Below are positions 30,983 to 33,117 of a stretch of DNA of 56,020 bases, piece after piece (positions within the stretch are counted from its first letter, which is position 1; each line of letters starts with the position of its first letter). The DNA lies in contig CASDPB010000122.1 in the NCBI GenBank assembly GCA_949282305.1, positions 1 to 56,020 of the forward strand, given 5' to 3'. A program made the translations under genes and the position numbers. Origin of the DNA: an uncultured Lentisphaeria bacterium. Its GTDB lineage: Bacteria; Verrucomicrobiota; Lentisphaeria; Victivallales; UBA1829. The notes under the pieces are model-generated. The model made no database searches and had not been told where the DNA came from. It worked only from the letters and a program-made list of their open reading frames with translations.

Positions 30983-31027
30983 AATATACTTCCGTTGTCT
31001 TGCAAAATCAATGCCGGCATGTATATT
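30983..31027. promoter_or_regulatory. Back-to-back promoters of the BASS and RNA helicase genes
   Basis: Minus strand: TTGATT (31011-31006), 17 bp, TATATT (30988-30983). Plus strand: TTGCAA (31000-31005), 16 bp, TATATT (31022-31027). The two -35 boxes abut, and the palindrome ATGCCGGCAT (31011-31020) lies in the plus spacer. The plus TSS would be near 31034, giving the helicase mRNA a leader of about 160 nt. Confidence 0.6.
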
Positions 31028-31098
31028 ATATGCCTTAATTCAATAAAAGGCGTGACTGCATCCGGCGGAAACGTCTGTCCGGGTCAATCGTGGAACTG

Positions 31099-31182
31099 AT
31101 GCCGTCCGATTCCCTTTGTAAGAATTTCATAATCTGATGTCAGATTTGCCGTTTCTTACGTGACATGATTTTTGGACGGCAT
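31099..31182 (+). promoter_or_regulatory. Nested hairpin in the 5' leader of the DEAD-box helicase mRNA
   Basis: Three collinear perfect stems nest inside each other: ATGCCGTCC (31099-31107) with GGACGGCAT (31174-31182); GTAAGAA (31118-31124) with TTCTTAC (31153-31159); AATCTGA (31131-31137) with TCAGATT (31140-31146). The structure ends 3 nt before the ribosome site AAAAGG (31186-31191). It could control helicase translation, as long leaders do for cold-shock genes. Confidence 0.55.
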
Positions 31183-31196
31183 GGCAAAAGGTTATG

Positions 31197-32897
31197 ATGA
31201 AAGAAAATTCCAGATTCCGTCTGCTCGGTATTTCCGAGAGGATTCTTGACGCTCTCGACAAAAAAGGTTTTGAAGAACCGACTCCCATTCAGGAACTTGT
31301 GATTCCACTTCTGATGAACGGCTCCGGGGACGTCATCGGACAGGCGCAGACCGGCACCGGAAAGACCGCCGCTTTCGGAATCCCGATCATCGAATCCGGC
31401 AGACGCTCAAAAGACGGTCCCGGAGCGTTGATTCTTGCTCCGACGAGGGAGCTCTCCATGCAGATAGCGGAGGAGCTGAACTCCCTGAAAGGGGAAAATC
31501 CCCTCCGCATCGCGGCGTTCTACGGCGGACAGAATATTGCTGTCCAGCTGAAACTCCTGAGCGCCGGGATTGACGTCGTCATCGGCACCCCCGGACGCAT
31601 CATCGACCTCATGGAACGAAAAAAGCTGCACTTCGGCAATATCAGATTCGCCGTCCTTGACGAAGCCGACGAGATGCTTGACATGGGATTCATTGAAGAT
31701 ATTGAACGCATTCTTTACGCAACGCCGGAGGACAAGCGGATGCTGATGTTTTCCGCGACCATGCCGAAAGAAGTGCTGGCGATTGCGGAACGTTTCATGC
31801 GGGATTACGAAATCGTCCGGACAAAGACGGCGGAACAGTCCAATGCGTTGACCGAGCAGATTTATTACGAAGTCCGACGGGAAAACAAGTTCGAGGCGCT
31901 TTCCCGTCTCATCGACATGGAAGAAGATCTTTACGGCATTGTGTTCTGCCACACCCGCGGCGAAGCGGATGAACTGGCGGAACAGCTGCAGCAGCGCCAC
32001 TATCCGGCGGAGGTGATTCACGGCGACATTCCGCAGTCCCGGCGGACAAAAGTAATTGCGGACTTCAAGGAGAGAAAGTTCAGACTGCTGATCGCAACCG
32101 ACGTCGCCGCCCGCGGAATTGACGTGAATGACCTTACGCATGTCATCAATTATTCGGTTCCGCAGAGCCATGAAACTTACATTCACCGCATCGGACGCAC
32201 CGGACGCGCGGGAAAGAGCGGCACCGCCATTACGTTTGTCGCGCCGGGAGACCAGCGCAAACTGAACATGATCCGCAAAAAAGTCCCCGGCGAAATCACG
32301 CGCAGGAATCTGCCGCGGACATGGGAAGTCGCCGAGGCGAAGAAAAAACGTTTTGCCGCATTGCTGGATTCGATTATCAGAGAGGAGAAGCATAAACAGT
32401 ATCTCTCTTTCGCCGACCTTCTTCTTTCGGCGGGGCATACGCCTTCGGAACTGCTTGCCGCGTTCCTTTATGACCGTTTCAAAGAGGAACTCGCAGCGGA
32501 GGAAGTCGTCAGCCTGTCGACGGACGATGCGTTCATCCCTCCGGAAATGCACGACCATTCTCAAATCTACATTGCCCTCGGCTATGACGCCGGTTACAAC
32601 AAGCGGAAACTCCTGGATCTGATTTTCAGGCGCTCCGGCGTCGGATGCGAGCGCCTCGGAAAAGTGGAATGTTCCAAAACGCATACTCTGGTCAATGCCT
32701 CCGCGGCGGATGCGGAACGGATCGTCAAGGCATTTCATGGCAAAAACAATCCGGAAACAAGAATCTCGGAGCAGTCCATATCGGATGACTCCATTCCGGA
32801 AAAGAGCCGGGGACCGTTGGAGCGCCGTTCCGGTGCCAGGTCGCGCAGAGGCTTTTTTCACCGGCAGCGCGGAAAAAAACTCCGTCGGGGCGAATAG
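31197..32897 (+). CDS. DEAD-box RNA helicase, DeaD/CsdA-like, with C-terminal RNA-binding domain
   Basis: The helicase core (about 1-365) has the Q motif 'FEEPTPIQELVIP', motif I 'AQTGTGKT', Ia 'PTRELSMQ', II 'VLDEADEMLD', III 'MFSATMP' and VI 'YIHRIGRTGRAGKSG'. A dimerisation-like helical region follows, then a DbpA-type RNA-binding domain (about 465-545: 'IYIALGYDAGYNKRKLLDLI', 'RRSGVGCERLGKVECSKT'), and a short basic tail ('RSRRGFFHRQRGKKLRRGE'). Such helicases help ribosome assembly and mRNA decay in the cold. ATG 31197 is favoured over 31194 because AAAAGG would be only 2 nt from the latter. 566 residues. Expression probably depends on the structured leader. Confidence 0.93.
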   Translation: MKENSRFRLLGISERILDALDKKGFEEPTPIQELVIPLLMNGSGDVIGQAQTGTGKTAAFGIPIIESGRRSKDGPGALILAPTRELSMQIAEELNSLKGENPLRIAAFYGGQNIAVQLKLLSAGIDVVIGTPGRIIDLMERKKLHFGNIRFAVLDEADEMLDMGFIEDIERILYATPEDKRMLMFSATMPKEVLAIAERFMRDYEIVRTKTAEQSNALTEQIYYEVRRENKFEALSRLIDMEEDLYGIVFCHTRGEADELAEQLQQRHYPAEVIHGDIPQSRRTKVIADFKERKFRLLIATDVAARGIDVNDLTHVINYSVPQSHETYIHRIGRTGRAGKSGTAITFVAPGDQRKLNMIRKKVPGEITRRNLPRTWEVAEAKKKRFAALLDSIIREEKHKQYLSFADLLLSAGHTPSELLAAFLYDRFKEELAAEEVVSLSTDDAFIPPEMHDHSQIYIALGYDAGYNKRKLLDLIFRRSGVGCERLGKVECSKTHTLVNASAADAERIVKAFHGKNNPETRISEQSISDDSIPEKSRGPLERRSGARSRRGFFHRQRGKKLRRGE

Positions 32898-32907
32898 AAT
32901 CATATCC

Positions 32908-32997
32908 CGGCGGCATTCTGTGAATCAGAATGGATGGCAGGGACAGAGCGGGAGAAAGAACAAGGAGCAGTAATCGGCGGCATTCTGTGAATCAGAA
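32908..32997. repeat. Two copies of a 23-bp direct repeat, each a dyad
   Basis: The 23-bp sequence CGGCGGCATTCTGTGAATCA + GAA occurs exactly at 32908-32930 and 32975-32997. Each copy holds TTCTG-TGAAT-CAGAA; in the first copy the arms extend to CATTCTG/CAGAATG. They lie between the helicase stop and the gntR promoter, 120-210 bp upstream of that promoter. They could be operators or a small dispersed repeat. Confidence 0.65.
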
Positions 32998-33117
32998 ATG
33001 GAAGCCGGGGAAAATCCCCGGGACAGCCGAATCCTTTCCACGTTCTTTGTTCTTTTCCTTGCCGCATTCTTGCCGCCGGCGGAAATGCAGTTTTTCCGGA
33101 AAATCTTTTTCCGGCGT

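Follow-up and report, generated by a model that had tools for sequence, protein, structure and literature searches.

The Helicase Locus

The sequence analysed here, referred to as the window, is a stretch of 56,020 nucleotides from an uncultured Lentisphaeria bacterium; it carries a gene for a DEAD-box RNA helicase, preceded by a leader in which several structural elements are predicted (Table 1). Regarding the protein, its Pfam matches are DEAD, Helicase_C and DbpA, while the top NCBIfam model is CshA, with a score under the cut-off of the model; the nearest models are CshA and DbpA, and both matches fall below the curated cut-offs. Translation most likely starts at 31197 rather than 31194, since the GTGKT motif then follows after 49 codons, a distance seen in almost every relative in which this motif was located.

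As for transcription, a consensus scan found no plus-strand promoter-like site between the promoter at 31000-31029 and the start codon, and it predicted a divergent promoter-like site on the opposite strand. A TATA-type box is readable in relatives at the position corresponding to the window promoter. Given the promoter-like site and the divergent one on the other strand, the helicase leader is likely to be about 160 nt long. At the other end of the gene, two copies of the direct repeat GGCGGCATTCTGTGAATCAGAA occur immediately past the helicase stop codon (32907-33000).

Table 1. Features of the helicase leader and of its surroundings; positions are those of the window, except for the tRNA genes, which are placed on the loci of the relatives
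Feature	Position	Strand	Basis
Sigma-70-like promoter (predicted), TTGCAA, spacer of 16 or 18 nt, TATATT/TATTAT	31000..31029	+	consensus scan
P1 hairpin (predicted), AGGCGU-GA-CUGC, loop AUCCG, GCGG-AA-ACGUCU	31048..31076	+	covarying helix, 6 leaders
P2 hairpin (predicted), GGG-UC-AAUCG, loop 31091-31106, CGAUU-CCC	31081..31114	+	covarying helix, 6 leaders
P3 5′ strand (predicted), AUGCCGUC, end of the P2 loop	31099..31106	+	complement in -36..-7, 6/6 leaders
Variable insert with two inner stems (31118-31124/31153-31159; 31131-31136/31141-31146)	31115..31173	+	present in the window
Candidate sequestering strand UUCAUAAUCU against Shine-Dalgarno/start; UGCCGU (31147-31152) against the P3 3′ strand	31126..31152	+	duplex energy, fold
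P3 3′ strand (predicted), GACGGCAU, immediately 5′ of the Shine-Dalgarno sequence	31175..31182	+	ACGGC conservation
Shine-Dalgarno sequence, AAAAGG	31186..31191	+	sequence
DEAD-box RNA helicase with DbpA-type RNA-binding domain	31197..32897	+	Pfam; start by comparison with relatives
tRNA runs	L029 3824-4118; L030 3480-3666; L031 3342-3633	opposite to the helicase	Rfam search of the relatives' loci

Related Leaders

A search with the helicase gave a match at E ≤ 1e-80 in 14 of 36 genomes of the family; in the order, with the cut-off set at E ≤ 1e-120, 72 of 137 genomes had one. The leaders were read from these 72, and many of those outside the group that aligns with the window are short or different. 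Leaders that align with that of the window come from the genomes G032, G033, G034 and G035 of genus g10, and from G016 (genus g8), all of them Victivallaceae; the comparison set thus consists of six leaders, the window and these five, three of which are from close species.

A tree built from 25 helicase proteins joins that of the window and that of G016 as sisters (support 0.983) and sets the g10 proteins on a separate branch; hence, the leader would either predate these splits or have moved with the gene. Direct DNA comparison with three congeners of the window (G001-G003) returned no leader match, and these genomes, which belong to other species of the same genus, had no helicase match at E ≤ 1e-80; the lack of the helicase in them versus its presence in other genera of the family suggests gene loss or transfer. 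The leader is also absent from G018, a genome of the same genus as G016. A mobile or repeated element was ruled out because the leader is single-copy within its own genome, the remaining matches being all short. In three g10 genomes, the helicase is followed by similar tRNA genes in runs of two or three, which are encoded on the opposite strand.

Hairpins P1 and P2

The loop of P1 is AUCCG in the window, AUUCG in G016 and GACCG in G035, which gives a conserved pattern NNNCG closed by C-G; as for P2, its arms in G016 are GGGAAAAUCGU and ACGAUUUCCC. Covariation was evaluated on alignment A3, made of five leaders aligned without structure; L032 (from G035) was excluded because its P2 arm was misplaced by MAFFT, and it later served as a held-out test. 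In A3, pairing occurs in 90.9% of 55 cells against 76.2% (sd 4.3) in the shuffled controls (0/500), the covariation score is 0.527 against 0.290 (1/500), and pairing falls to 27-52% when the partners are slid by 1-3 columns. The alignment of all six leaders (A4) has pairing in 92.4% of 66 cells, with both-sided changes in 6 of 11 pairs; however, A4 was fitted to the covariance model and is biased towards its own structure, and for this reason every possible 5- or 6-bp helix was scanned on the unfitted A3 and A1. The four scans, with the 8 best helices taken from each, gave 32 in total, of which 30 were P1 or P2 in neighbouring registers; in the other two, the loop region of P1 is paired with the strand in the P2 loop.

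Regarding the held-out leader, a covariance model built without G035 returned it as the best non-training match among 77 sources (E 0.062), at the correct place and strand, with 11/11 pairs standard. Covariation across related leaders was the check suggested with the original prediction, and it is found in both P1 and P2; the nested anatomy described there had left out these two hairpins, which are the best supported elements, while its broader claim of a structured regulatory leader before a DEAD-box helicase is supported.

P3 and the Pseudoknot Layout

The complement of the P3 5′ strand found at -36..-7 is 7, 5, 5, 5, 7 and 6 bp long in L028-L032 and L034, respectively, with chance values of 0.00085, 0.087, 0.072, 0.069, 0.0015 and 0.017. 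The pairing is kept via changed pairs, CGCCGG/CCGGCG in G016 versus UGCCGU/ACGGCA in the window, and its core GCCG/CGGC is invariant in all the leaders compared. Between the ACGGC-type strand and the Shine-Dalgarno sequence there are 1-8 nt, and ACGGC is retained inside diverged flanks; of 16 leaders from the genera g1, g8, g10 and g47, 8 have it at -36..-8, versus a single case among the 56 remaining helicase leaders, and, among the open reading frames of the window, it precedes only one of 39, the helicase gene itself. The comparison shows that the predicted P1, P2 and P3 complementarity is conserved across the six Victivallaceae leaders.

According to the alignments, the P3 5′ strand abuts the P2 3′ strand with a 0-nt junction in 6/6 leaders; as in H-type pseudoknots, the loop strand pairs outside the first stem, and the short junction permits stacked stems. 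We infer from this layout that the two helices P2 and P3 coexist, stacked on each other in an H-type pseudoknot. An alternative partner for the P3 strand exists in g10 and G016, where the loop region of P1 could bind it.

As for tests of P2 plus P3 on single leaders, 16 leaders with 500 shuffles each gave P values of 0.03-0.51 in the 13 of 16 with the motif, mostly not significant. Another test, on 23 leaders with 100 shuffles each, had no shuffle as good (0/100) only for L028, L123, L126, L127 and L143; the structures picked in L028, L127 and L143 differ from P2/P3, L028 having used another P2, and in L029, L030, L031, L032 and L034 the combination was not better than the 100 shuffles of each. 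Regarding g47, whose leaders were kept out of the alignments, a P2-like hairpin with a UGCCG loop is found in G126 and G131 (P 0.17 and 0.03, respectively), along with ACGGC before the Shine-Dalgarno sequence, and the hairpin was not seen in G129 and G134; the g47 leaders may represent a remote variant of the one described here.

Folding of the Window Leader

The original prediction had described three perfect stems nested in one hairpin. The 9-bp stem (31099-31107/31174-31182) and the 7-bp one, GTAAGAA/TTCTTAC (31118-31124/31153-31159), are both present; the third (31131-31137/31140-31146) has the seven complementary bases, but they are separated by a 2-nt gap, which limits the stem to 6 bp closed by an AUGU loop. 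The three stems stack as described, and the stack ends 3 nt before the Shine-Dalgarno sequence. All the parts of the nested hairpin exist in the window, but only the 9-bp stem is conserved, with the sequences of the inner stems missing from all five other leaders. The conserved stem corresponds to P3 extended by 31107, which joins it once P2 opens.

Regarding stability, a 177-nt stretch is weakly stabler than its shuffles (z -1.82, 11/200), and the 88-nt hairpin alone, with bounds chosen after the fact, has -31.3 kcal/mol against -16.85 (sd 2.96) for the shuffles (z -4.88, 0/200). The folding computations consider nested structures only, and the best nested fold of the window by RNAfold has P1 and P3 and lacks P2; with P2 enforced and without P3, the energy is -45.2 versus -49.3 kcal/mol of the best fold.

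In the window, the candidate sequestering strand gives a duplex of -15.5 versus -10.7 (sd 2.1) for the shuffles (2/60). At 37 °C, the closed fold (31126-31152 with 31175-31198) has -48.8 kcal/mol versus -49.3 kcal/mol of the open one, that is within 0.5, and at 20 and 10 °C it becomes the best predicted fold. An RNA thermometer would have its Shine-Dalgarno sequence paired in the cold and free in the warm; the predicted pairing of this sequence is 0.50 at 10 °C and 0.16 at 37 °C, values that hold for the window and involve a strand not shared by g10. The ribosome site of the window is also more open than that of 59/60 shuffles. When the same measure was applied to g10, none of its four leaders had a sequestering strand that surpassed the shuffles (48, 26, 47 and 25 of 60), three of them showing no strand of this kind, and in G016 it is weakly stronger (5/60); since none of the g10 leaders exceeds the shuffles, this strand is treated as a refinement at the level of the window.

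Specificity of the Element

When the covariance model was run on the 36 family genomes, the five training leaders scored 57-72 bits and no other match among those listed exceeded 27; in the 137 order genomes, the next matches were L202 and L203 (29.4 and 27.5 bits, respectively), and in both sets the element was found above 57 bits only before this helicase. The search of 387 phylum genomes gave no further match beyond E 1e-4. Both L202 and L203, and also L187-L191 (26.8, 26.7, 24.7, 24.4 and 23.3 bits), are within long open frames and were taken as chance matches.

A known RNA family was ruled out, as Rfam gave no match above the gathering threshold for the window, nor a credible one in a permissive search, and only tRNAs in the loci of seven relatives. 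The element was not found on several genes of one pathway, as metabolite riboswitches are, but on the helicase gene only. An attenuator based on an upstream open reading frame was discarded, too: the leader of the window has ATG frames of 12, 8 and 10 codons, which are not conserved, considering that four of the other five leaders have no ATG frame of at least 8 codons and one has an unrelated frame of 67 codons. The open-licence papers searched did not reveal any structured leader described for CshA/DeaD-type helicases of Lentisphaerota, and the element is probably a family-level leader RNA of the pseudoknot type, absent from Rfam.

Proposed Mechanism and Alternatives

The reading that we consider probable is that the leader, with P1 and the stacked pseudoknot of P2 and P3, sets the translation initiation of the helicase, with the helicase as the most likely controller. 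The helicase mRNA would start with a cis-regulatory leader of about 160 nt built of P1, P2 and P3, the latter joining the P2 loop to the ACGGC-type strand before the Shine-Dalgarno sequence; the pseudoknot would be placed inside the ribosome landing site, and its making or breaking would set translation initiation. The window would have a competing fold that takes up the P3 3′ strand and conceals both the Shine-Dalgarno sequence and the start codon, so that in this leader the formation of P3 would keep the site open. As for the controller, the helicase itself would be the first candidate, since the element is on no other gene; autogenous control is proposed tentatively, with less than even confidence, and cold may be a controlling signal.

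The same leader could be a binding site for some other factor (a ribosomal protein, a small RNA or a metabolite), its structure being the receptor of another signal. The conserved P1 loop, NNNCG closed by C-G, does resemble a recognition site, but metabolite riboswitches do not usually have a single target gene, and no Rfam family matches the leader, so that this possibility appears rather unlikely. A switch between two states without any pseudoknot is an unlikely explanation, a little more so than the previous one: the nested hairpin would keep the ribosome site open and 31126-31152 would close it by pairing with 31175-31198, with temperature or an unwinding factor shifting the balance. It agrees with the nearly equal energies of the two folds at 37 °C, with the closed one prevailing at 20 and 10 °C, and with the strength of the anti-ribosome-site strand (2/60) at a site that is more open than in 59/60 shuffles; however, it leaves the covarying P2 without a role, its inner stems are missing in the other five leaders, and its closing strand does not exceed the shuffles in any of the four g10 leaders and does so weakly in G016.

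That the structure is due to chance, in an ordinary GC-rich 5′ region without a regulatory role, would fit with the weak fold of the whole leader (z -1.82) and with single-leader pseudoknot tests that are mostly not significant; however, the covariation tests on P1 and P2, the recovery of the held-out G035 leader and the retention of ACGGC amid diverged flanks make it quite improbable.

Returning to control of translation initiation by the pseudoknot, a bolder version, to which we give little credence, considers the leader an RNA with which the helicase senses its own unwinding activity, and has self-sensing evolve repeatedly in Victivallales. P3 and its competitors (31126-31152 in the window and, for g10 and G016, the loop region of P1) would vie for the same strands; with this competition, the level of free helicase would set its own translation by remodelling P3. 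In other Victivallales lineages, this gene is preceded by leaders of different kinds, a part of which contain anti-ribosome-site strands; this, if the sensor exists, would point to a repeated origin of self-sensing. If these proposals are true, the phylum Lentisphaerota has a family of leader RNAs that Rfam does not list, in which a pseudoknot is placed on the gene of an enzyme that could unwind it, and the self-regulation of the helicase can be tested in vitro with one leader and one protein.

Comparison with Known Systems

The leaders of S15 (rpsO) and L20 are H-type pseudoknot translational operators that bind a ribosomal protein; like the putative one of the helicase, the pseudoknot is at the ribosome site of the controlled gene, but sequence and layout are unrelated to those of the window leader, as far as Rfam shows. 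The cspA-type leader is a long leader on a cold-shock gene, and the window, too, has a long leader on a gene of a type linked to cold shock, although without an Rfam match. Autoregulation of DeaD via its own leader has been reported.

CrhR from Synechocystis, an autoregulated and cold-induced DEAD-box helicase, shows that an enzyme of this type can autoregulate (PMC3485376). The similarity consists in a DEAD-box helicase gene whose product affects, or here would affect, its own expression; in CrhR, the autoregulation was shown experimentally through transcript and protein levels, whereas the structure of the window leader is deduced from sequence, and the leader structure proposed here has no counterpart named in the available part of that report (PMC3485376). 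The uORFC-6-1 motif upstream of hflX is likewise a structured element before an RNA helicase gene; according to the available part of its description, it is based on an upstream open reading frame and belongs to Bacillales, while the leader of the window lacks a conserved upstream frame (PMC8632094).

Other Helicase Leaders in the Order

In g47, ACGGC (GCGGC in L125) stands ahead of the Shine-Dalgarno sequence in 4/4 leaders (L123-L126); L123, L124 and L126 have UGACAACU in common, and the P2-like hairpin with the UGCCG loop is found in L123 and L126. The short leaders L039 and L040 (genus g6) have, just upstream of the helicase start, the strand GCUCCUU complementary to the Shine-Dalgarno sequence; the duplex of L040 is -13.1 kcal/mol versus -6.7 (sd 1.7) of the shuffles (0/60), and L039 gave 5/60. 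The last 120 nt before the start are strikingly alike within genus g45 (L142 and L150) and within genus g44 (L134 and L140), and in both L150 and L142 AAUCCUUCAG is complementary to CUGAAGGAU at the Shine-Dalgarno sequence. The helicase leader of G088 (L046/L152) contains the terminator-like GACCGGCGCGTTGCCGGTTTTTTTG, as if it were under transcription attenuation control. Finally, L144, L145 and L148 (genus g30, family f8) and L170 (genus g28, family f7) have in common the hairpin GACTTAGTTACTT ... GGCTAAGTCA, whose stem is identical in 4/4.
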